Shown: in pieces, positions 7,904 through 24,567 of the stretch
Layout of the letters: the number at the start of each line of letters is the position of its first letter
How positions within the stretch are numbered: the stretch's first letter is position 1
NCBI GenBank assembly: GCA_016219005.1
Contig: JACRCN010000001.1
Span: 1-64,000, forward strand
Direction: 5' to 3'
Source: Deltaproteobacteria bacterium
Lineage (GTDB): Bacteria; Desulfobacterota; Desulfobacteria; Desulfobacterales; SpSt-501
Length of the DNA: 64,000 nucleotides
Notes under the pieces: generated by a model
The model's input: the letters and a program-made list of their open reading frames with translations, nothing else
Told to the model about the DNA's origin: nothing
Databases searched by the model: none
Position numbers and translations under genes: made by a program

Positions 7904-9040
7904 TTACTTGACGAACACGCTGAATTTTCCGTTCTTGACTTCCTGTACCACCGGTGAGTGGTCTGCATCCCGTCCCTCGGTGAAGGAAAACTTGCCCAGG
8001 AGCGTATCGATGCCCTTGATCTTGAGCATGGCATCCCGAATGGCCTTGCGGTTGTCCGCGGTCCCGGCCGACTTGGCCGCCTGATAGACGATAAAGACGC
8101 CGGCGAAGGCCTGAGCGGCAAACTGATCCGGGGGGTGGTTGTATTTCTTGGTGTAGTCGTCCACGAATTTGACGTTCAGAGGGTTCGTCGAGGAGAAGTT
8201 CCAGGCCGCCCCCACGATGACCCCTTCGGCTGCCTCGCCGGCGTTTTTGATCAGGGCCGGGGAGTTGAAGCCGTTGCCGCCGACGATGCGCACGTTCTTG
8301 GCAATACCCAGCTGACGCGCCTGGCTGACGATGCCGGAGGCCTCTTCCACCAGGGCCGAGCAAATGATGGCGTCCGGGCTCTGGGACTTGATCTGGGTCA
8401 ACTGCGGCGAGAAGTCCCGGTCGCCCTTGGCGAAGGTCTGCTCGCCCAGAATCTGGATCCCTTCCGCCTGAAGCACTTTGCGGAACACGTCCGCGCCGCT
8501 CTTGGTGAAGGCGTCGTCGTTGCCATAGAACAGAACCACCTTCTTGAGCCCCAGCTTCTCCTTGGCGACCCGGATGGTGTTGGGGATGACTACGGCCTCG
8601 GTCAGGGAGTTCCGAAAAATGTAATCGCCGATCTCGGTGATCCCCCCGGCCGTGTTGCTGACGCCCAGCACCGTAACACCGATCTGCTGGGCGATGGGGT
8701 TGGTGATCTTGGCGGTGTTGCTCAGCGTGGGGCCGATGACGACGGCGACCTTGTCGCCGTTGATGAGCTTGTTGTACACGTTGGTGCCCTGCTGGGGCAC
8801 GCTGGCGTCGTCCTCAAAAATCGGCGTCACCTGCATCCCGCTGCCTGCCGCGGCGTTGATCTGGTCCACCGCCAGTTGCGCGCCTTCCTTCTGGCTGACG
8901 CCGTAAGAGGCCGCTCCGCCCGTCATGCTGAAGACAAAGCCCATTTTGATCTTGTCGGCGGAAATCGCCGGGCTGACCGCAACCGCCACAAAGATCGCAC
9001 AACCAGTTGCCCACAGCAGGAATCGGCTGAATCGTTTCAT
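7904..9040 (-). CDS. livK: ABC transporter substrate-binding protein (LivK-like)
   Basis: A 378-residue periplasmic binding protein of the Leu/Ile/Val-binding type (peripla_BP_6 fold). The first ~27 residues form a Sec signal peptide (KRF..., a hydrophobic core, then SPAISA before DKIKMG). The mature part shows GFVFSMTGGAASYGVSQKEG and AVIGPTLSNTAKITNPIAQQ, with Ser/Thr residues in the places that usually hold the ligand carboxylate. AAGGAGG precedes the ATG. It is the first gene of the liv operon. Ligand identity cannot be read from sequence. Confidence 0.92.
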   Translation of the reverse strand: MKRFSRFLLWATGCAIFVAVAVSPAISADKIKMGFVFSMTGGAASYGVSQKEGAQLAVDQINAAAGSGMQVTPIFEDDASVPQQGTNVYNKLINGDKVAVVIGPTLSNTAKITNPIAQQIGVTVLGVSNTAGGITEIGDYIFRNSLTEAVVIPNTIRVAKEKLGLKKVVLFYGNDDAFTKSGADVFRKVLQAEGIQILGEQTFAKGDRDFSPQLTQIKSQSPDAIICSALVEEASGIVSQARQLGIAKNVRIVGGNGFNSPALIKNAGEAAEGVIVGAAWNFSSTNPLNVKFVDDYTKKYNHPPDQFAAQAFAGVFIVYQAAKSAGTADNRKAIRDAMLKIKGIDTLLGKFSFTEGRDADHSPVVQEVKNGKFSVFVK

Positions 9041-9145
9041 GATGACCTCCTTGGTTTAGGAAATTAAACGCTCTAAACATCCACGGCCTTGGATACCGGA
9101 TACTCGGTGAGAGGCTATCTCGCGGGATGACGCTAAATTTTATAG

Positions 9146-9173
9146 AAAATACTCCGCGGCGCGCAGATGTCAA
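9146..9173 (-). promoter_or_regulatory. sigma-70-like promoter of the liv operon
   Basis: On the minus strand TTGACA (9173-9168) is followed after 16 bases by TATTTT (9151-9146), about 105 bases before the livK ATG. The hexamer scores are good for such a GC-rich sequence and the position is sensible. Confidence 0.5.
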
Positions 9174-9240
9174 GCTAAAAAACCAGACGGATTGCCACTT
9201 TTTGAGTGAGTGGGCGCGCGCGCGATCTTCGCGGACCGCA

Positions 9241-10590
9241 TCAGCCGGTATTGCTTTCATCCAGCCCCACGGCAAGCGGTTTGTCGGGCGCTGCCTCCTC
9301 CACCCGCCGCAGGCTGCGTTCGATGGCCCGCGTGCGCACTTCCGCCTGGTCGATCGTGTGGGTCGCCTCCTCAAGCTTTTTCTTGGTCCGGGCCAGGGTG
9401 TCGCCGAACTTGCCGAACTCCGTCTTCACGCTCCCCAGAAGTGCCCACACGGCGTTTGAGCGCTTGCCGATCGCCAACGTCCGGAAGCCCATTTGCAGGC
9501 TGTTCAGCAGCGCCGCCAGAGTGGTAGGGCCGGTGACCACGATGCGATGCTCGCGCTGCAGGATGTCACACAACCCGGGGATCCTCAGCACCTCGGCATA
9601 CAGGCCTTCCACCGGCACGAACAGGATGCCGAAATCCGTGGTGTGGGGCGGGTCGATGTATTTATCGCGGATCGATCTGGCCTCGAGCTTCACGCGCTGC
9701 TCCAGACTTTTCAAGGCCCGATCGGCGGCCTCCTTGTCGGCCGCCGCCTGGGCGTCGAGCAGCCGCTGGTAGTCCTCCTGAGGGAACTTGGCGTCGATCG
9801 GCAGCCATACGACCCCCTCCGCGGCATCATCCTGCCCCGGCAGCCGGATAGCGAATTCCACGCGCTCGGTTCCGCCGCGCCGTGTGACGACGTTGACCGC
9901 GTATTGCTCGGGGGTCAAAATCTGTTCGAGGATATGGCTCAGCCGGATTTCGCCCCAGGTCCCGCGCGTCTTGACGTTGGTCAGGACCTTCTTGAGATCG
10001 CCCACGCCGGCGGCCAGGGAACGCATTTCGCCCAGACCGGTGTAGACCTGCTCGAGGCGTTCGCTCACCTGCCTGAAGGACTCGCCCAGGCGTTTTTCCA
10101 GGGTGGACTGGAGTTTTTCATCGACGACGTTGCGCATCTGGTCGAGCTTTTCGGTGTTGCTCTCTTGCATGGAGTGCAGCCGGTTCTCAATCGTCAGACG
10201 CAGGGCTTCGAGCTTGCCCTCGTTCAGCCGTGTCAGGTCTGCCAGCTGCCTGGAGAAACTGTCCAGCTGATCTTTCTGCAACCGCGCAATCTGCGCCATG
10301 CGATTTAAAATGGAGTCCGTCAGGTGCCCGAGGGTGGCCCGCATTTCCTCGCGTGCCTGCCGGTCGCCGAAGGCGAACTCCTGGCGGCTGCGGCCGAACT
10401 CCTCCCGCAGCACCCGTTCGGATTCATCCAGGCGCCGGTCGATGGCGAAGAAGGACGCCTTGAGTTCGGCCTGCAGCACCAGCGGGTTGCGCCGGGTCAG
10501 GACGATCAGCAGCACAAACGCTGCGACCGACAGGGCCAGCAGCGCCATGGGCAGGTAAACGGAAAACCCTTCCAGAATGATATCCACCAT
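9241..10590 (-). CDS. rmuC: DNA recombination protein RmuC
   Basis: A 449-residue protein with one N-terminal membrane segment (about residues 13-32), a long coiled-coil region (~40-170) and the conserved RmuC nuclease-like domain. The latter is seen in GVGDLKKVLTNVKTRGTWGE, LPIDAKFPQEDYQRLL, FVPVEGLYAEVLR and VVTGPTTLAALLNSLQMGF. RmuC limits inversions and duplications and acts in DNA damage processing. It is transcribed alone; its leader carries repeat D1 about 60 bases before the ATG. Confidence 0.93.
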   Translation of the reverse strand: MVDIILEGFSVYLPMALLALSVAAFVLLIVLTRRNPLVLQAELKASFFAIDRRLDESERVLREEFGRSRQEFAFGDRQAREEMRATLGHLTDSILNRMAQIARLQKDQLDSFSRQLADLTRLNEGKLEALRLTIENRLHSMQESNTEKLDQMRNVVDEKLQSTLEKRLGESFRQVSERLEQVYTGLGEMRSLAAGVGDLKKVLTNVKTRGTWGEIRLSHILEQILTPEQYAVNVVTRRGGTERVEFAIRLPGQDDAAEGVVWLPIDAKFPQEDYQRLLDAQAAADKEAADRALKSLEQRVKLEARSIRDKYIDPPHTTDFGILFVPVEGLYAEVLRIPGLCDILQREHRIVVTGPTTLAALLNSLQMGFRTLAIGKRSNAVWALLGSVKTEFGKFGDTLARTKKKLEEATHTIDQAEVRTRAIERSLRRVEEAAPDKPLAVGLDESNTG

Positions 10591-16440: not shown

Positions 16441-17886
16441 ATGGCCGAGACCTACCTGTTTTACGACATCGAGACCACGGGCCTGAACAGGGCGTTCGAC
16501 CAGGTCCTGGAATTCGCAGCCATCCGCACCGATTGCGACCTCCACGAACTCGACCGATTCACGGCGACGATCCGCCTGCGTCCGGACGTGATCCCGTCGC
16601 CATCGGCCATCCTCGTCAACCGCCTCCGGCCGGAGATCGACCGGGGCCGCTGCGAGGTTGAGTCCGTACGGGAGATCCACGCTCAGATGAACCGGCCGGA
16701 GACGACCAGCATCGGCTACAACTCCATCGGGTTCGACGACGAGTTCCTGCGCTTCTCGTTCCACCGCAACCTGCTGCCGCCCTACACCCACCAGTTTGCC
16801 AACGGCTGCCGCCGGATGGACCTGCTGCCCGTCACCATCATGTATTGGCTCTACCGGCGCGGGCCGCTGCAGTGGCCGGAGTTAAAAGGCAAGGCCTCCC
16901 TGAAGCTCGAGGACATCGGGGCCGCCAACGGCCTTTTCACCGGCCAGTCCCATGATGCGCTGTCGGACGTGGAAGCGTCGCTGAGGCTGGCCCGTCTGCT
17001 TTCCCGGGAAACGGACATGTGGCGCCGCCTCGACGAGGGCTTCCGCAAGGACATCGACGCCCAGCGGTCGGAGGAGTTGCCCGTGGCGTTCAAAACCGCC
17101 GCCGGCGACCACAAATGGGGCGTGCTGGTGAGCGGCGAGTTCGGAACGCGGCAGCGCTTCCAGGCTCCGGTGATCGCCATCGGCTATTCGGTCCCCTTCC
17201 CCAAGCAGTCCCTGTGGCTGCGCCTCGATCTGCCCCACCTGAGGCTCGCGACGGAGGCGACCGTCGCCGAGACCACCTGGGTAATACGCAAGCGTTACGG
17301 CGAACCAGGGTTCCTGCTGCCGCCCACGGACCGCACCCTCGAGCCGATCAACCGCGAACGCCGGCAGCACATGCAGGAAAACCTGCGCTGGCTCGAGTCT
17401 CACGAGGGGGAGTTCCAGCAGATCAGCGCCTATCACCGCAACTTCCGCTACGCGTTCATCCCCGGCCTGGATGCCGACGCGAGCCTCTACCAAACGGGCT
17501 TCCTGCCCCGCGCCGACGAGGCCCTGTGCCGCGCCTTCCACGCCGCGGCGTTTGACAGAAAAGTGGAAATTGCGACCCGGTTTTCCAGCCCCGAGGCCCG
17601 CATCCTGGCGGAGCGCATCCTGTTCCGCAACTATGATGACCCGCTCCCGCCGCATCTGAGACGGGCGCGTGATGCCTTCCAACGGCGCATCTGCCGGAAG
17701 GAGGCGCTTACGGACCATGCCGGCAACCGCCGCACCACCCCCCAGAGCGCCCTGGCGGAAATCCGCGAGCTCCGGCGGTCCGCGGGCCTGAACGACGGTG
17801 AGCGCCGCCTGCTCGACGATCTGCAGGACCACATCCTCCGGCGCTTCCCTTGCGGCGCACCGGCGCAGCAGCTATCGCTTCTATGA
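16441..17886 (+). CDS. sbcB: exodeoxyribonuclease I
   Basis: A 481-residue homologue of E. coli exonuclease I (about 475 residues). The DnaQ-type exonuclease domain shows FYDIETTGLNRAFDQVLEFA (catalytic Asp and Glu), GYNSIGFDDEFLRF and the final SHDALSDVEAS (His and Asp). The C-terminal region carries the SH3-like and helical parts, including FRYAFIPGLDADASLYQ. It degrades single-stranded DNA 3'-5' in recombination and mismatch repair. Start ATG at 16441. Confidence 0.93.
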   Translation: MAETYLFYDIETTGLNRAFDQVLEFAAIRTDCDLHELDRFTATIRLRPDVIPSPSAILVNRLRPEIDRGRCEVESVREIHAQMNRPETTSIGYNSIGFDDEFLRFSFHRNLLPPYTHQFANGCRRMDLLPVTIMYWLYRRGPLQWPELKGKASLKLEDIGAANGLFTGQSHDALSDVEASLRLARLLSRETDMWRRLDEGFRKDIDAQRSEELPVAFKTAAGDHKWGVLVSGEFGTRQRFQAPVIAIGYSVPFPKQSLWLRLDLPHLRLATEATVAETTWVIRKRYGEPGFLLPPTDRTLEPINRERRQHMQENLRWLESHEGEFQQISAYHRNFRYAFIPGLDADASLYQTGFLPRADEALCRAFHAAAFDRKVEIATRFSSPEARILAERILFRNYDDPLPPHLRRARDAFQRRICRKEALTDHAGNRRTTPQSALAEIRELRRSAGLNDGERRLLDDLQDHILRRFPCGAPAQQLSLL

Positions 17887-17962: not shown

Positions 17963-19153
17963 ATGCGAAGTTCAGGCGCCCCACTGACCGCCCGGCAGCA
18001 GCTCCGCCGCCAGTGGCGCCTGGTCGGGGCCTGCGGTGTGCCGTTCATCGGCGCCGGGTTCTGGCTGCTGCTCGAACAGGGGGGGCTTTCCGCCGCGCTG
18101 CAGGGGAGTTTGCAAACCGCCGCCGTCATGGTGTATGGATGGACTTGCTGGGGCCGGGCGCTCGAGTTGAACCATTCCCTGCAGGAGCCGCGGCTGCGGC
18201 CGTCGCTTGGAGCCGCCAACTGGCTGACCCTGCTGCGGGGCGGCCTGATCGCCGTTCTGGCCGGGTTTCTCTTCCAGCCGCCGCTCGCCGGAGGAAGCCT
18301 CGCGGGCTTGGCCGCCTGGACGCCGGCGGCACTATATATCGCGGCCGCCGCCCTCGATGGCGCGGATGGATTTCTCGCGCGGGTGACCGGCAGTGAAACG
18401 CGCCTGGGCGAGCACCTCGACACCGCAGTCGACGCGCTCGGCCTCTTGATCGCCGCATCCCTGATCGTTTGGATCGGTAAGGCGCCGGCCGCCTATCTTT
18501 GCGTCGGCCTGGGGTATTATGCGCTGAAGGCTGCGGTGGAAGCCCGGCGGAAAGCCGGCCGGCCCATCGCCCCGGTGCAACCCCGGCCCGAAGCCCGCCT
18601 GGTGGCCGGCTGCCAAATGGGTTTCGCAGGGGCTGCGATGCTGCCGCTTTTCGAGCCGGCGGCCACACGACCGGCGGCGCTCATCCTGACCGCGGCCCTG
18701 CTGGCCGGGTTCGCCCGGGATTGGCTGGTCGTCTGCGGCCATGCGGCGCCCGATGGCAGGCCCCTGATCCGAGGGGTGGAGCGCGTCGACCGCGCGATAG
18801 CCCGATTCCTGCCCCTTGTTCTGAGGGCGGCGGCCGTCGCCGGCGTGGTCGTGCTTTTGGGCCGCTTTCTGGCCGGCGAGGGCTTGACACCCCTTTCCAC
18901 TGCCGGATGCGCACTGCTTGGGACGTGCGCGGCCCTGCTCGCTTTCGGTGTCATGACACGGATGGCGGGCCTGGCCGCCAGTGTAACGGTGGCCCGCGCG
19001 ATGGCCGGCCAAACCGCCGGCATCGAGTGGGGCGTCGTGTTGGGATGCAGCGTGGCCCTCATCATGACCGGTGCCGGCGATCTGAAGCTCTGGCAGCCGG
19101 AGGACCGTTTCTTCATGAAGCGGCTCGGGGGTGACGCGCCGCCCGGGCCTTGA
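17963..19153 (+). CDS. CDP-alcohol phosphatidyltransferase family membrane protein
   Basis: A 396-residue multi-spanning protein. It contains a perfect CDP-alcohol phosphotransferase motif, DG-x2-AR-x8-G-x3-D-x3-D, read as DGFLARVTGSETRLGEHLD followed by TAVD. These enzymes transfer a phospho-alcohol from a CDP-linked donor at the membrane. It is about twice the usual ~200-residue length, with an extra hydrophobic C-terminal half. Start 17963 is preferred over 17798, which would overlap sbcB by 89 bases. It heads the candidate pterin-like cluster. Confidence 0.85.
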   Translation: MRSSGAPLTARQQLRRQWRLVGACGVPFIGAGFWLLLEQGGLSAALQGSLQTAAVMVYGWTCWGRALELNHSLQEPRLRPSLGAANWLTLLRGGLIAVLAGFLFQPPLAGGSLAGLAAWTPAALYIAAAALDGADGFLARVTGSETRLGEHLDTAVDALGLLIAASLIVWIGKAPAAYLCVGLGYYALKAAVEARRKAGRPIAPVQPRPEARLVAGCQMGFAGAAMLPLFEPAATRPAALILTAALLAGFARDWLVVCGHAAPDGRPLIRGVERVDRAIARFLPLVLRAAAVAGVVVLLGRFLAGEGLTPLSTAGCALLGTCAALLAFGVMTRMAGLAASVTVARAMAGQTAGIEWGVVLGCSVALIMTGAGDLKLWQPEDRFFMKRLGGDAPPGP

Positions 19154-19177
19154 TCCTTCATCCCCATCAGCAGCGAC

Positions 19178-19939
19178 ATGACCGAAGAGCCTCACACCAC
19201 CATCGGCCGTCAGGACCCCATCCGCTCGCTGGAGGACCTCGGCGCCGGCCGGGCCGACGCGGCGCGCTTCCGGGCAAAGCATGGGCGGCCGTTCGTGGTG
19301 TTAAGCTATGCCCAGAGCGTCGACGGCAGCATCGCCGGCCGCAACCGGGAGCGGATCCGGCTGAGCAGCCCCGAGTCCATGGCGCTCACCCATGGGATCC
19401 GCGCGCTCTGCGATGGCATCCTGATCGGCATCGGCACCCTGCTCTCCGACGATCCCCGTCTCACCGTCACGCATGCCTGCGGCCCGCACCCGCAGCCTGT
19501 CGTCCTGGACACGCATCTGCGAACCCCTCCGGCCGCACGCCTGGTGCAGCGCCCGGACGCCCGGCCGTGGATCATCCACAAGCCCGGCCTGCCGGAGTCG
19601 CGGGCGCAGTCTTTGCGGGCGGCCGGAGCGGATCCGATGCCCTGCGGCGCCGGAACCGACGGATGGATCGATCTGCCGTCGGCCCTGGCATTGCTCGCGG
19701 ACCGGCAGGTCAACCGCCTCATGGTGGAAGGCGGAGCACGCGTGATCACGAGCTTCGTGCGGCAGCAGGTCGCCGACCTCTTCATCATCACCATCAGCCC
19801 CCAGTTCGTTGGAGGCCTGCCCGTTCTCGATGCCGGTGCAGCCAGGGGCGCTGTTCATCTGCAACTCGAAGAGGCGTTCTATCAGCCCATGGGGCGGGAC
19901 CTCATCCTGTGGGCGCGCCCAGGGTGGGCCCCGGCATGA
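19178..19939 (+). CDS. RibD C-terminal-like (dihydrofolate reductase-fold) reductase
   Basis: A 253-residue protein with the RibD_C/DHFR-like reductase fold: RPFVVLSYAQSVDGSIAGRNRER, then CDGILIGIGTLLSDDPRLTV, the NADPH-site NRLMVEGGARVITSF and a terminal FYQPMGRDLILWARP. Family members reduce the ribose of a pyrimidine (or pterin-like) ribosyl-amine. The deaminase half of RibD is missing, and no riboflavin genes (ribA/B/E/H) are near, so a role outside riboflavin synthesis is likely. It ends in an ATGA overlap with the next gene. Confidence 0.85.
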   Translation: MTEEPHTTIGRQDPIRSLEDLGAGRADAARFRAKHGRPFVVLSYAQSVDGSIAGRNRERIRLSSPESMALTHGIRALCDGILIGIGTLLSDDPRLTVTHACGPHPQPVVLDTHLRTPPAARLVQRPDARPWIIHKPGLPESRAQSLRAAGADPMPCGAGTDGWIDLPSALALLADRQVNRLMVEGGARVITSFVRQQVADLFIITISPQFVGGLPVLDAGAARGAVHLQLEEAFYQPMGRDLILWARPGWAPA

Positions 19940-20958
19940 AGCGCCACAGCGTCGTCTTCCAATCTCCGTTTCACGTCGATGTTGCGGCCGATGAGATTCC
20001 GGAGCCGGCACCGGCGGAGGTTCTCGTCCAAGTCGGCCTTTCGGCGGTCAGTGCCGGCACCGAGCTTCTGGTCTACCGTGGGCAGGTGCCCGCGGACATG
20101 CCCCTGGATGCGAACTTGCCGGCACTCACCGGAGTGCTCCGATTCCCGCTGCGCTATGGGTATGCCGCGGCCGGCCGGGTGACGGTCGTGGGACGGCAGG
20201 TGGATCCGGCCTGGCGCGGCCGCCGCGTTTTCTGTTTTCACCCGCATGCCAGCCACCTCGTGGCCTCCCCCGCCGAGCTCATCCCGATTCCGGACGACGT
20301 GGAGACACGCGACGCCGTGTTCCTCGCCACCATGGAAACCGCCGTGACCTTGATGATGGACGGACACCCGGCCATCGGCGAGCGCGTCGTGGTATTCGGC
20401 CAGGGTGTCGTGGGCCTGCTCGCCACCGCGCTGCTGTCACGGCACCCGCTGAAAAGCCTCTTCGGCGTCGACCCGTTTCCGCACCGCCGCGACGCGGCGC
20501 GGATGGCAGGCGCCGACGCGATCTTCGACACGGCCGACCCGGGAGCCTTGAACCACCGGCTGGAGGAGGATTCCGGCGGGGCCATGGCCGACCTCGTGTT
20601 CGAACTTTCGGGCAACCCGCAGACGCTGGATGCGGCCATCGCAAGTGCCGGGTTTGCGTCGCGCATCATCATCGGTTCCTGGTATGGCACGAAACCGGCC
20701 ACCGTGAACCTGGGCGGGAAATTCCACCGCAGCCGCATCCGCATGATCAGCAGCCAGGTAAGCAGCCTGCCCCACGAGTTCCTCGCGCGCTGGACAACGG
20801 CCCGGCGGCTGGCGACGGCATGGGACATGATCCGCTGCGTGAAACCGTCCCGCTTCATCACCCACGAGTTTCCCGTCGAAAAAGCCGCCGAGGCCTACGC
20901 TCTTCTCGACCAAAGGCCTTCGGAGACCAGCCAGGTGGTATTGACCTACACCGGGTGA
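19936..20958 (+). CDS. zinc-independent MDR (alcohol dehydrogenase-like) oxidoreductase
   Basis: A 340-residue medium-chain dehydrogenase/reductase. The GroES-like N-terminal domain contains VGLSAVSAGTELLVYRG, where the catalytic zinc Cys of true alcohol dehydrogenases is replaced by Ser. The Rossmann motif is VVVFGQGVVGLLATALL. The structural-zinc cysteine cluster is also absent. The start at 19936 overlaps the stop of the RibD-like gene, so the two are translationally coupled, suggesting consecutive steps. Substrate unknown. Confidence 0.85.
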   Translation: MKRHSVVFQSPFHVDVAADEIPEPAPAEVLVQVGLSAVSAGTELLVYRGQVPADMPLDANLPALTGVLRFPLRYGYAAAGRVTVVGRQVDPAWRGRRVFCFHPHASHLVASPAELIPIPDDVETRDAVFLATMETAVTLMMDGHPAIGERVVVFGQGVVGLLATALLSRHPLKSLFGVDPFPHRRDAARMAGADAIFDTADPGALNHRLEEDSGGAMADLVFELSGNPQTLDAAIASAGFASRIIIGSWYGTKPATVNLGGKFHRSRIRMISSQVSSLPHEFLARWTTARRLATAWDMIRCVKPSRFITHEFPVEKAAEAYALLDQRPSETSQVVLTYTG

Positions 20959-20986
20959 CGCCTGAGCGTTTGCAACTACTCAGGTC

Positions 20987-21040
20987 GATAGACGAAAGCC
21001 TTTTAGGGACAAACGATGCGTGCTCACACAAACTTTCGGG
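20987..21040 (+). repeat. repeat family D, copy 2
   Basis: A 54-bp core matching 10651-10704 in reverse complement. CGAAAG/CTTTCG pair across the core, and the outer GCAACTAC (from 20972) pairs with GTAGTTG (21041-21047). The stem base pairs differ between the two copies in a partly compensatory way. It lies about 210 bases upstream of the QueD-like gene. Confidence 0.6.
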
Positions 21041-21251
21041 TAGTTGAGCAGATGGATGAAGCAGCCATGCTGGTTCATGAGAATTCAACTCTGATTGGAC
21101 CAGGGGTCGTAGAAACCGGGAGGGTCTTGAATCGCTTGGGGTATTATTCCCCGCCGCTTGCAACGGAGCAGTTGATTCGTGCGTTGCGATATTTTTTATG
21201 GACTTCAGCCTTCCGTCTAAACACTTGAGTCGTTATGCGGAGATGACCACC
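21041..21251. other. leader stretch before the QueD-like gene
   Basis: No gene recognised. GGGG-TATTATT-CCCC at about 21138-21152 forms a small hairpin. No clear sigma-70 or sigma-54 promoter could be fixed. The tail of repeat D2 lies at its left edge. Confidence 0.3.
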
Positions 21252-21638
21252 ATGTACACCGTAGCCGTGCAGCGCGAGCTCATCGCCCAGCATTTCCTCA
21301 TTGGCGGCGATTTCGGACCGGAGAACCAGCCGCACTCCCACCACTACCGGGTGGAGGTCCGCCTGGCCGGCCGCAGCCTGGATTCCCATGGATTCCTCGT
21401 GGATATCGACGAAGTTGCCGCTCTCCTCGCCGAATTGCTCGAGATCTACCGGGACAAGACTCTGAATCACCTGCCCGAGTTCCAGGGCCTCAACCCGAGC
21501 ATCGAGCACCTGTGCCGTCTCCTGTGCCGCCGCCTGGCCGGGAGGCTTAACCGCCGCAACCTTGCCACCGTCACCGTGGTGATCCGGGAAAGCGACGTGG
21601 CCTGGGCCGCCTGTACCGAAGACATGACATGCCCATAG
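21252..21638 (+). CDS. 6-pyruvoyl-tetrahydropterin synthase/QueD-family protein
   Basis: A 128-residue member of the PTPS/QueD (T-fold) family. The zinc histidines are read in AQHFL and PHSHHYRVEV; LNHLPEFQGLNPSIEHL and VIRESDVAWA are family-typical. The Cys that normally precedes the HxH motif and acts in catalysis is absent; a Glu (in GPENQPH) sits in that loop. The chemistry may therefore differ from QueD. No queC, queE or queF is nearby. The ATG at 21252 has GGAG nine bases upstream. Its stop overlaps the glycosyltransferase start. Confidence 0.85.
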   Translation: MYTVAVQRELIAQHFLIGGDFGPENQPHSHHYRVEVRLAGRSLDSHGFLVDIDEVAALLAELLEIYRDKTLNHLPEFQGLNPSIEHLCRLLCRRLAGRLNRRNLATVTVVIRESDVAWAACTEDMTCP

Positions 21639-22711
21639 CGCTGGTCCTATACGGCCGCCTGCACACCCTGACCGGCGGGTTCCTGTACGACCGTTACCTG
21701 GTCGAAGCCCTGCAGCGCCGGGGGCACCGGGTCGAGGTGATCGGCCTGCCATGGAGGCGCTATGGGGTCTGCCTCCTCGACAATTTCTCGCGCGGGCTGT
21801 GCGACCGGCTGTGCCGCGGCCCCTGGGACCTCATCCTGCAGGACGAACTCGTGCATCCGTCCCTCTTCCGGCTCAACCGCCGAATCCGGCGCCGGAGCAG
21901 TACTCCCATCGTTAGCATCGTCCACCAGGTTCTCTGCCGCCAGCCGCGCCGCCCCTGGTTCAATCTCGCTTACCGGCAGATAGAGAGCGGTTATCTTCAA
22001 ACGGTGGATGCGTTCATTTTCAACAGCGCCGCCACCCGCGACCAGGTCCGGCACCTGGTCGGGAAAACCCGGCCTCATTGTCTATCCCGCCCGGCCGGAA
22101 GCCGCCTCGGGGCTTTATCCTCCCAGGGCCTCATCGCCGAAAGAAGCCGCCAAAGCGGCCCACTCGAGCTGCTGTTCGTCGGCCACCTGTCGCCCGTCAA
22201 GGGCCTGGAGGCGCTGCTCTCCGATCTGGCGCGCGTCCCGCGGGACATGTGGCGGCTCACGCTCGTGGGCGACATGACCGCAGATCGCCGCTGCGCGCGC
22301 CGGGCACGCGCGATCATCGCCCGCCATGGTTTGGAAAAACTGGTGGATTTCCGGGGGCGCCTGGACGGCAACGACCTGAAAGCGGTATACTCCCGCAGCC
22401 ACGTGTTCGCCATGCCCTTTGCCCACGAGGGCTTCGGCATCGCGGCCCTCGAAGCCATGGGCTTCGGCCTGCCGGTCATCGGGTCCAGCGCGGGCGGGGT
22501 CCGGGAGTTCGTGCGCCACGGCGAAAACGGATTCCTGGTCGCACCCGGGGATCACGAATCGGTGCGAAGGCACATCGAAGCCATGCACCACGACCGGGGC
22601 CGGCTGATCGCAATGGGGACGGCCGCCTTCAACACCGGCAGCGGCTGGCCCTCCTGGCGGCAGACCCTGGAGCCGGCCTGCGTGTTTCTTGAAAAGCGGA
22701 TGGCTTCGTAA
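21629..22711 (+). CDS. glycosyltransferase family 4 (GT-B fold)
   Basis: A 360-residue cytoplasmic glycosyltransferase. The C-terminal donor-binding half shows LLFVGHLSPVKGLEALL, the E-x7-E-type segment FAHEGFGIAALEAMGFGLPVIG and GENGFLVAPGD. The N-terminal acceptor half begins MPIALVLYGRLHTLTGGFLY. It overlaps the QueD-like gene by ten bases. The final codons (Met-Ala-Ser-stop) lie inside TIR element A1, so the C-terminus has been rewritten by the element. Residues about 144-170 look unlike the family and another frame reads better there (see findings). Confidence 0.85.
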   Translation: MPIALVLYGRLHTLTGGFLYDRYLVEALQRRGHRVEVIGLPWRRYGVCLLDNFSRGLCDRLCRGPWDLILQDELVHPSLFRLNRRIRRRSSTPIVSIVHQVLCRQPRRPWFNLAYRQIESGYLQTVDAFIFNSAATRDQVRHLVGKTRPHCLSRPAGSRLGALSSQGLIAERSRQSGPLELLFVGHLSPVKGLEALLSDLARVPRDMWRLTLVGDMTADRRCARRARAIIARHGLEKLVDFRGRLDGNDLKAVYSRSHVFAMPFAHEGFGIAALEAMGFGLPVIGSSAGGVREFVRHGENGFLVAPGDHESVRRHIEAMHHDRGRLIAMGTAAFNTGSGWPSWRQTLEPACVFLEKRMAS

Positions 22712-22823
22712 ATAGTCCGATTTCGGCATTGCGCCCCATCGCATTGTTGCTGCGGCGTAGTTGAAGTACGCCTCGCTCCACGCGATTCGCGCGCCTTGAA
22801 CTTGGCCTCTTTACAAAGCCATC
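22699..22823 (+). repeat. TIR element family A, copy 1
   Basis: A 125-bp element with near-perfect 14-bp terminal inverted repeats: GATGGCTTCGTAAA at 22699-22712 and the complement of GATGGCTTTGTAAA at 22810-22823 (13 of 14 identical). It matches 62022-62143 in reverse complement over its whole length. It carries the stop codon of the glycosyltransferase gene. No internal ORF; MITE-like. Confidence 0.85.
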
Positions 22824-22830
22824 GATCCGG

Positions 22831-24567
22831 ATGATTCTCCGCAAGTTCATCAAAGCTGAAGAGCACGCAGTCACCCCAATGGACTCAACAGACTCAATGG
22901 GCTCAACGTACTCCAACGACCGCGTCCGAAACCCTCTCAGCCAGCTGCTCAAGGCTCTGGCCGCCTTGGCTTTTCTGAACGCTGTCCTGAACATGGACGC
23001 GGCGATCCCGGGACGGCCCTGGGAGGCTTTTCTGCATCTTTCACCGGAGCTGCTGGTGCTGCTCATCGGGATGAGCGTGCGGGCGCGTCGGGCCACGCGT
23101 TTCCGGCCGGCATTCTATGCTTCCATCGCGACGGCCGTGATCTTTCTCGGGCTCTTCCGCCTGGCGGACAACCTGGTCCCGATGGTCTTCAACCGGCCGT
23201 TCAACCTCTACCTGGACACCCGGCGTTTGCCGGACCTGGTGTTCCTCGGCTGGATGCTGCTTTCCCCTGGTCTTTTTGCCATGGCCCTGGCGGGGCTTGC
23301 CCTGGCCCTGCCGGGCATGGCCTGGGGTGTGGTCCGCTGCCTGAAAATCCTGCACGGCGGTTTAGCCGCAACCGGCCGAAAGCCATTGCTGTCGTGCCTG
23401 GCGGCGGGGGTGATCGCAGCCGGTGCCTGGTCGGGCCTCCGCCCTCACGACACACCGGTCTGGATGGGGTCGGCCGTCCTGCCCCGGCTGGCCGAGGAGG
23501 TGCGGGCGATCATGGATCTCGAAGGCATCCGCCGACGGGACCGGGACGCCATCGAAGCGGCCATCGAACGGTCCCGGGGCACCCCCACGAACCTGAACGC
23601 CCTGAACCGCACCCCGGTGTTCCTCTTCGTGGTCGAATCCTACGGGCAGACCGTGTTCTCCGAGCCGCATCACGCCGCGCGGGTGGCGCCCGTGGTGAAA
23701 GCCGCCGAAGCCGACCTGCGGGCCGCCGGGTTCGGGATGTGCTCGGCCTACCTGGCCTCCCCGACCTTCGGCGGCAGCTCCTGGCTCGCTCACGGCACCC
23801 TGGCGAGCGGGGTTCGCCTGAACAGCCAAACCCGGCACGACCTGCTGCTCGAATCGGAACTTACGCCGCTGGCCGAGTATTTCAACCGGGCCGGTTACCG
23901 CACCGTTTGCGCCATGCCCGGGACCCTCTGGCCGTGGCCGGCCGGTGAATTTTTCCGATTCCAGCGGACGTACGCCGCCGGGGATTTCGCCTACAAGGGG
24001 CCCGACTTCGCCTGGGCACCCATGCCCGACCAGTACGTCCTCAGCTGGATCTACCGGCAGGAGGTTCGGGACGCCTCCGACCCGCTGTTGGTCGAGTTCA
24101 TCCTGGTCAGCAGCCACGCCGCCTTCGACGTGCATGCCCCTTACGTCGAGGACTGGCAGACCCTTGGCGACGGCTCCCTTTTCCACTCACTCAAGGCGCT
24201 GATATTTCCGGGCGCCTGGACCGACCCGCCCAAGCTCGCCGCGGCCTATAGCGCAGCCATTGTTTACGAGTTCACGGTGTTAAGCGGGTTCATCCGGCGC
24301 TTCCTGGCCGGCGACGAACTCGTTATCATCATGGGCGACCATCAGCCCTGCGCCCCAGTGGCGGGAACGGGCGCTTCCTGGTCCGTCCCGGTGCACGTGA
24401 TCAGCCGGAACCCGGATGCGATCAGAAGGTTCGTGCAGCGAGGCTACACGGAAGGTTTGATCCCCGGCCAGGCGCCGCCGCACCCTGGCATGGAAAGCTT
24501 TTTCTGGAACTTCCTGGAGGATTTCAGCGAGTCGGACCCCGGCGCAGCGCTCGCAACTCGGAACTGA
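22831..24567 (+). CDS. membrane-anchored sulfatase/alkaline-phosphatase-fold protein
   Basis: A 578-residue protein. About four N-terminal membrane helices (within residues ~35-205) are followed by a periplasmic sulfatase-like domain. Motifs are FLFVVESYGQTVF (metal-binding Glu), SPTFGGSSWLAHGTLASG with a Ser/Thr in the place of the nucleophile, LVSSHAAFDVH and IIMGDHQP (metal-binding Asp/His). The plan resembles LtaS/EptA enzymes, which move phospho-alcohols between lipids and surface glycans. The start is uncertain: the first ~30 codons include a 9-bp tandem array (22879-22914), and Met1, Met17 or Met23 are all possible. As last gene of the cluster it may transfer a head group outside the membrane. 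Confidence 0.75.
   Translation: MILRKFIKAEEHAVTPMDSTDSMGSTYSNDRVRNPLSQLLKALAALAFLNAVLNMDAAIPGRPWEAFLHLSPELLVLLIGMSVRARRATRFRPAFYASIATAVIFLGLFRLADNLVPMVFNRPFNLYLDTRRLPDLVFLGWMLLSPGLFAMALAGLALALPGMAWGVVRCLKILHGGLAATGRKPLLSCLAAGVIAAGAWSGLRPHDTPVWMGSAVLPRLAEEVRAIMDLEGIRRRDRDAIEAAIERSRGTPTNLNALNRTPVFLFVVESYGQTVFSEPHHAARVAPVVKAAEADLRAAGFGMCSAYLASPTFGGSSWLAHGTLASGVRLNSQTRHDLLLESELTPLAEYFNRAGYRTVCAMPGTLWPWPAGEFFRFQRTYAAGDFAYKGPDFAWAPMPDQYVLSWIYRQEVRDASDPLLVEFILVSSHAAFDVHAPYVEDWQTLGDGSLFHSLKALIFPGAWTDPPKLAAAYSAAIVYEFTVLSGFIRRFLAGDELVIIMGDHQPCAPVAGTGASWSVPVHVISRNPDAIRRFVQRGYTEGLIPGQAPPHPGMESFFWNFLEDFSESDPGAALATRN
22879..22914 (+). repeat. 9-bp tandem array inside the sulfatase-like N-terminus
   Basis: Four units, ATGGACTCA ACAGACTCA ATGGGCTCA ACGTACTCC in order, coding MDS-TDS-MGS-TYS. 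The unit is a multiple of three, so it keeps frame. It offers two in-frame ATG codons and obscures the true start. Confidence 0.75.

Follow-up and report, generated by a model that had tools for sequence, protein, structure and literature searches.

The closest described relative of the locus reported here is SCO6650 of Streptomyces, a member of the PTPS family of the type called PTPS-IV, whose structure has already been solved (PDB 3d7j). A network analysis published in 2017 described a PTPS-IV cluster of 561 sequences with the motif FGPAQ, encoded beside PF00925 and PF01872, i.e. GTP cyclohydrolase II (GCH II) and RibD_C (PMC5445326), and a review from 2016 cites an unpublished statement that PTPS-IV takes part in F420 synthesis (PMC5041015). 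We compared these systems with a cluster of six genes in the window, by which we mean the whole 64,000-nucleotide stretch analysed (positions 1 to 64,000 of contig JACRCN010000001.1, assembly GCA_016219005.1) of a bacterium of the Desulfobacterales. The genes encode, in this order, a CDP-alcohol phosphatidyltransferase, a RibD_C-type reductase, an MDR-superfamily dehydrogenase, a PTPS homologue, a GT4 glycosyltransferase and a sulfatase-fold membrane protein. SCO6650 shares the fold of the window PTPS, and its homologues are encoded next to MDR, GT4, methyltransferase, CDP-alcohol transferase, RibD-family and GCH II proteins. The window likewise has an adjacent RibD_C gene, whereas GCH II is found in the clusters of relatives only.

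Single members of the cluster also resemble enzymes of known pathways. QueD (PTPS-I) shares the T-fold, the zinc-binding His residues and an anchoring Glu with the window PTPS, but the Cys and the Asp-His dyad of QueD are gone from the window protein and none of the genes queC, queE and queF lies nearby. RibD and archaeal ArfC share the RibD_C domain and the DDP and EGG motifs with the window reductase; riboflavin RibD combines a deaminase with a reductase domain, whereas the window protein has the reductase domain only, with a QSxDG motif and without the canonical Lys. A literature search, most subscription journals lying outside it, found no account of the whole gene set or of its product. 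The preliminary description of this DNA had called the pathway undescribed, which stands for the complete set and its product but not for the SCO6650-type protein and its GCH II and RibD_C neighbourhood.

Conservation of the gene set

The gene set stays together in no fewer than five phyla of bacteria and archaea. A search based on the MDR protein yielded 28 loci from Desulfobacterales, Caldilineaceae, one gammaproteobacterium and haloarchaea, that is from three bacterial phyla and the haloarchaea. The PTPS gene was found beside the MDR gene or within ~1.3 kb of it at 27 of these loci, and the contig of the 28th ends just past the MDR gene. RibD_C was adjacent to MDR at every bacterial locus (12/12) and at no haloarchaeal one (0/16). 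The RibD_C-type reductase, the MDR, the Cys-less PTPS and GT4 occurred together in Desulfobacterota, Chloroflexota and Gammaproteobacteria, and without RibD_C in haloarchaea. A single gene order was observed in Desulfobacterales, including members of the same genus: exonuclease I, CDP-alcohol transferase, RibD_C, MDR, PTPS, GT4 and sulfatase. Four of these loci (L033, L034, L043 and L044) carry the window genes in the order of the window.

Among 297 sampled genomes of the phylum Desulfobacterota, 15 encode the MDR, the window genome included. All 14 others also encode a PTPS of the window type (A-type), adjacent to the MDR gene in nine and, in five, next to GT4 and methyltransferase genes on a different contig. 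That the core genes are kept jointly although physically split argues for one pathway. The QueD-type loci of relatives served as a natural control, and none of the 23 had any of the partner genes within ~1.5 kb. A chance neighbourhood was rejected in view of the recurrence in other phyla and of these partner-free control loci. The reductase, the MDR, the A-type PTPS and GT4 are a co-conserved core. The preliminary description had left it to a neighbourhood analysis whether the genes belong together, and they do stay together far beyond the window genome, in other phyla.

A parallel version of the cluster, built on the SCO6650-type (B-type) PTPS, was found in Actinomycetota, Alphaproteobacteria and Gammaproteobacteria, with the set located on plasmids in Streptomyces, Microbacterium, Methylosinus, Thiodictyon and Rhizobiaceae. 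The sets of Agrobacterium, Peteryoungia and Rhizobium add a sulfatase, a flippase-like LPG_synthase_TM protein, a CDP-alcohol transferase and cytochrome b561, and on two plasmids of Streptomyces the SCO6650-type PTPS stands without the partners. In two mosaic loci (L045 and L088) GT4, methyltransferase or FkbM genes of the B-type accompany an A-type core, and this mixing suggests that the A- and B-type versions make related products.

The PTPS homologue and its partner enzymes

The AlphaFold model of the window PTPS (pLDDT 95) had SCO6650 as its top fold match in the PDB (Z 18.4, root-mean-square deviation 2.0, 125 aligned residues; next match 15.9), followed by pterin enzymes, and SCO6650 was its best sequence match as well. 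The PTPS tree, which is unrooted and so sets no sister order, fell into three clean groups: A-type, B-type and QueD. The A-type stood apart from QueD with support 99/99, and the 13 rows of the SCO6650 type grouped on their own (support 100/99), with the window PTPS outside this group. In the alignment the window PTPS keeps the zinc ligands H14, H28 and H30. Glu replaces the catalytic Cys in 43 of the 44 A-type rows, and in place of the Asp-His dyad stand Arg (38/44) and Asp (40/44), whereas the Cys and the dyad were canonical in all 24 QueD rows of the same alignment. The absence of Cys recorded in the preliminary description was thereby confirmed. The pterin-anchoring Glu is found in 44/44 A-type rows and does not vary in the B-type either. 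In the SCO6650 type Ala takes the place of both the Cys and the third zinc His, and the motif is FGPAQ, where the window PTPS reads FGPEN; the window type has GPEN, three His and the Glu.

Known pathways were set against the cluster. Queuosine synthesis was rejected, the QueD catalytic residues being lost in the window PTPS and a canonical QueD being encoded elsewhere (contig C97 of the window genome). Riboflavin synthesis was rejected too: contig C74 carries a complete riboflavin operon with a canonical bifunctional RibD, and the window reductase has no deaminase domain. The cluster as a stand-in for a lost GTP cyclohydrolase I (GCH I) was also dropped, since FolE is absent, yet FolE2 is present in the genome.

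The window reductase scored 122 bits with the archaeal-type model TIGR01508 against 84 bits with TIGR00326 (bacterial RibD), both under the cut-off, and its QSxDG motif or a near form is common to the cluster reductases. GCH II is fused in one frame to relatives of this reductase in Caldilineaceae and some Desulfobacterota, and the two are encoded side by side at the gammaproteobacterial locus. A gene for GCH III lies upstream of MDR in Haloferax, Haloprofundus, Haloarcula pelagica and Natrarchaeobaculum. The absence of riboflavin partner genes noted earlier thus holds for the window but not for the homologous clusters, which carry GCH II or GCH III. In many related clusters an S-adenosylmethionine-dependent methyltransferase gene follows GT4. 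The MDR alignment (83 rows) showed PH, SWYG, FHxxR and SQV as conserved; as read from it, the zinc ligands (Cys/GHE) are missing, as claimed before, with SxGTE and YGYxxxG in their place. The nearest solved chains to the MDR are polyol and other secondary-alcohol dehydrogenases.

The switch position of GCH II, studied in Streptomyces by Spoonamore and colleagues, reportedly decides formate removal, with Met giving a formylated product. The cluster GCH II proteins have Tyr there, except that of Streptomyces fungicidicus (L107, 12479-13135), which has Met. A creatininase-type amidohydrolase is encoded beside the S. fungicidicus GCH II only and beside no Tyr-type cluster GCH II; this pairing, a single Met case, is coherent because a formylated product would need a deformylase.

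At the arfA locus of Haloferax (HVO_1284) GCH III stands directly upstream of MDR, PTPS and GT4, but RibD_C is absent. Deletion of arfA leads to riboflavin auxotrophy, and we found no role in that review for the genes downstream of arfA (PMC8305020); the literature search turned up no paper on HVO_1281-1283. On plasmid pNG700 of Haloarcula marismortui (L063) a PTPS match in two pieces was observed at 8937-9295, where no PTPS gene is annotated, with a creatininase gene nearby at 2148-2906.

A candidate pathway to an envelope-linked pterin

The CDP-alcohol transferase has the complete motif DGxDGxxAR(x8)GxxxDxxxD in translation, in agreement with the perfect motif reported for it earlier. Its orthologues occupy the same position at six loci (L033, L034, L043, L044, L099 and L100), and homologues of another type occur in haloarchaeal, actinobacterial and proteobacterial clusters. 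GT4 homologues adjoin the core genes in relatives. LtaS, EptA and OpgB transfer phospholipid headgroups outside the membrane, a logic that the combination of CDP-alcohol transferase, flippase-like protein and sulfatase-fold membrane enzyme resembles. The sulfatase-fold protein appears to share their membrane part and sulfatase-type domain, and the motifs VESYG, GDHQ and SSH are conserved in proteins of the window type; this likeness comes with a Pfam Sulfatase match under the cut-off and an AlphaFold model (pLDDT 50) too poor for comparison. A PDB sequence search with this protein gave no match. Full-length homologues with 32-33% identity were detected in the Agrobacterium and Peteryoungia clusters (E 1e-72 and 5e-72), and one with 30% identity in the Thiodictyon cluster. 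The Rhizobiaceae gene adjoins those for the CDP-alcohol transferase, the flippase-like protein and cytochrome b561, and the protein also occurs outside the cluster, on other plasmids. Row L043, which was misframed, was left out of alignment A2.

Our preferred interpretation, held with about even confidence, is that the cluster forms one branch of the GCH II type, leading to a pterin-like alcohol which then receives a sugar and a phospho-linkage to a lipid or the envelope. Comparative genomics gives the membership and the partners, and all reactions are inferred. We favour one pathway because the core genes are adjacent, GCH II is fused to or GCH III neighbours them, the Glu anchor is kept throughout the A-type and the membrane half recurs. 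Further reasons are that the reductase scores nearer the archaeal non-deaminated type and has no canonical Lys, and that the Met-type GCH II is paired with a creatininase. GTP would be opened to 2,5-diamino-6-(5-phosphoribosylamino)pyrimidin-4-one, in the window organism presumably by the RibBA of riboflavin synthesis, encoded on contig C74. With no deaminase partner, the RibD_C-like enzyme would then convert the ribose to ribitol and leave the 2-amino group in place, and the MDR would oxidise a side-chain hydroxyl. If this oxidation took place at C2', the ketone and the 5-amino group could condense to a 7,8-dihydroneopterin-type ring, and such a redox route would by-pass GCH I while matching the outcome of its Amadori rearrangement. 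The PTPS homologue, with zinc, a Glu base and the Glu anchor, might close the ring or trim or isomerise the side chain, and GT4 would attach a sugar. The CDP-alcohol transferase would make a phospholipid whose headgroup is this product or an alcohol related to it. By analogy with LtaS, EptA and OpgB, the sulfatase-fold enzyme may transfer or remodel the phospho-group outside the membrane. Chlamydia reportedly obtains its folate pterins from GCH II together with TrpF, which would set a precedent for such chemistry. Periplasmic glucan may be the acceptor, as mdoH, a gene for its synthesis, is found close by in Dinoroseobacter, Methylosinus and Neorhizobium.

The preliminary description had proposed that the cluster makes a pterin- or deazapurine-like molecule, glycosylates it and links it to a lipid or surface carrier. 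The cohesion across phyla, the GTP cyclohydrolases of relatives and the membrane half in unrelated phyla speak for this, but a deazapurine of the QueD type is an unlikely product, since the window PTPS has lost the catalytic residues of QueD and the genome encodes a canonical QueD separately. We conclude that the pathway is real and widespread and, it appears, still unsolved; in the window variant the PTPS retains its zinc site and an envelope module is attached. The gene set is common to bacteria and haloarchaea, lies on plasmids and chromosomes and is routinely annotated as 'queuosine' or 'alcohol dehydrogenase'. It would represent a widespread metabolic pathway with a testable enzyme for every reaction; many QueD annotations would then need correction, and membrane pterins or glycoconjugates that have no assigned genes could be accounted for. 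We place little confidence in a more far-reaching version, in which bacteria and haloarchaea have in common a route independent of GCH I, going from the GCH II product through reduction and re-oxidation to a pterin that bears a sugar and is anchored to lipid or envelope. Such a pterin might be a redox cofactor, with the cytochrome b561 of the proteobacterial clusters serving it. A link to the charged pterins of haloarchaea is no more than a possible lead; on halopterin the literature search brought up nothing relevant.

Several points weigh against the preferred pathway. No cluster member has a known product or activity, the oxidation at C2' by the MDR is a chemical guess, and zinc-less MDRs often reduce C=C bonds. 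The window cluster itself contains no methyltransferase or GTP cyclohydrolase gene. Conjugation may not be a universal feature, because neither CDP-alcohol transferase nor sulfatase-fold genes were observed in the clusters of Caldilineaceae and of many haloarchaea. Finally, the membrane half on Rhodobacterales plasmids, which has no adjoining pterin genes, may use another alcohol as substrate.

Among the competing explanations, the one that survives best is that the cluster turns GTP into a pyrimidine or a lumazine-like compound rather than a pterin, e.g. a glycosylated ribityl-diaminopyrimidine, with a PTPS that is no more than a scaffold for binding or dehydration. The products of GCH II and RibD_C are pyrimidines, and the Cys and the Asp-His dyad are lost in the A-type, together with one zinc His in the B-type. 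However, both types keep the pterin-anchoring Glu without exception, the zinc site of the A-type is whole and the PTPS fold matches SCO6650 and then pterin enzymes, so we regard this explanation as possible but rather unlikely. We find it improbable that the RibD_C-like protein is a DHFR-like pterin reductase acting on a GCH I (FolE2) pterin, with the cluster merely decorating the reduced pterin: RibD_C and DHFR have a common fold and FolE2 is present in the window genome, but the relatives pair with GCH II rather than GCH I, in some cases fused to the reductase.

A pterin-type operon could also lie by chance next to an unrelated envelope operon with the CDP-alcohol transferase and the sulfatase-fold protein. 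Plasmids of Rhodobacterales (L136, L137 and L139) do carry cytochrome b561, CDP-alcohol transferase, sulfatase, ABC transporter and GT4 genes with no pterin genes alongside; their GT4 is 41-48% identical to the cluster GT4, and a flippase-like protein is encoded in L137 and L139. The two halves are nevertheless joined in Desulfobacterales, Rhizobiaceae and Thiodictyon in differing gene orders, and the sulfatase-fold protein had no homologue at E 1e-30 in the 296 other sampled genomes of the phylum, which makes two independent neighbours quite unlikely. Haloarchaea and Streptomyces produce F420, and the statement quoted in the 2016 review would fit an F420 branch, but this very improbable reading is largely refuted for the window lineage: CofH had no match in the window genome, in 15 further genomes with the cluster no match exceeded the curated cut-off, the clusters show no F420 genes, and the window PTPS falls outside the PTPS-IV tree group. 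Tandem sub-threshold CofH matches look like MqnC and MqnE of the futalosine pathway.

Locus layout and neighbouring features

All six cluster genes are intact open frames on the plus strand. The six-gene order and the two overlaps of the preliminary description were reproduced, namely an ATGA (19936-19939) joining the RibD_C and MDR frames and 10 bases (21629-21638) shared by the PTPS and GT4 frames. The start of the PTPS gene was moved: it is likely the ATG at 21252 and not 21198, because the family begins with MYxV and the preceding stretch is repeat-derived. Pfam matches were above the cut-off for all products except the sulfatase-fold protein.

Coordinates of the cluster genes and intervening elements in the window
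Feature	Position	Strand	Supporting match or remark
CDP-alcohol phosphatidyltransferase, 396 aa, multi-pass membrane	17963..19153	+	Pfam PF01066 (CDP-OH_P_transf) 2.9e-13
RibD_C-type reductase, deaminase domain absent, 253 aa	19178..19939	+	PF01872 9.7e-38
MDR-superfamily dehydrogenase, 340 aa, no zinc-ligand motif	19936..20958	+	PF00107 (ADH_zinc_N) 1.3e-11
Repeat-derived spacer, MDR to PTPS, 293 bases	20959..21251		partial copies elsewhere in genome
A-type PTPS homologue, 128 aa	21252..21638 (open frame from 21198)	+	PF01242 3.6e-24
GT4 glycosyltransferase, 360 aa	21629..22711	+	PF00534 (Glycos_transf_1) 1.7e-32
123-bp element, 13-bp terminal inverted repeats	22700..22822		
Alkaline-phosphatase/sulfatase-superfamily membrane protein, 578 aa	22831..24567	+	Pfam Sulfatase 1.6e-4, under cut-off

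A reading of the cluster as a defence system was dropped, as PADLOC matched none of the six genes. An exonuclease I-like gene (16441-17886) with no evident link to the pathway lies directly upstream of the cluster, and it holds the same position at five Desulfobacterales loci (L033, L034, L043, L044 and L100). Pieces of the spacer between MDR and PTPS, which is much shorter in most relatives, are 78-83% identical to sequences elsewhere in the genome, with partial copies at C3:10651-10719 and C6:20321-20426. The 123-bp element, with inverted-repeat ends ATGGCTTYGTAAA, separates GT4 from the sulfatase-fold gene and provides the stop codon of GT4.

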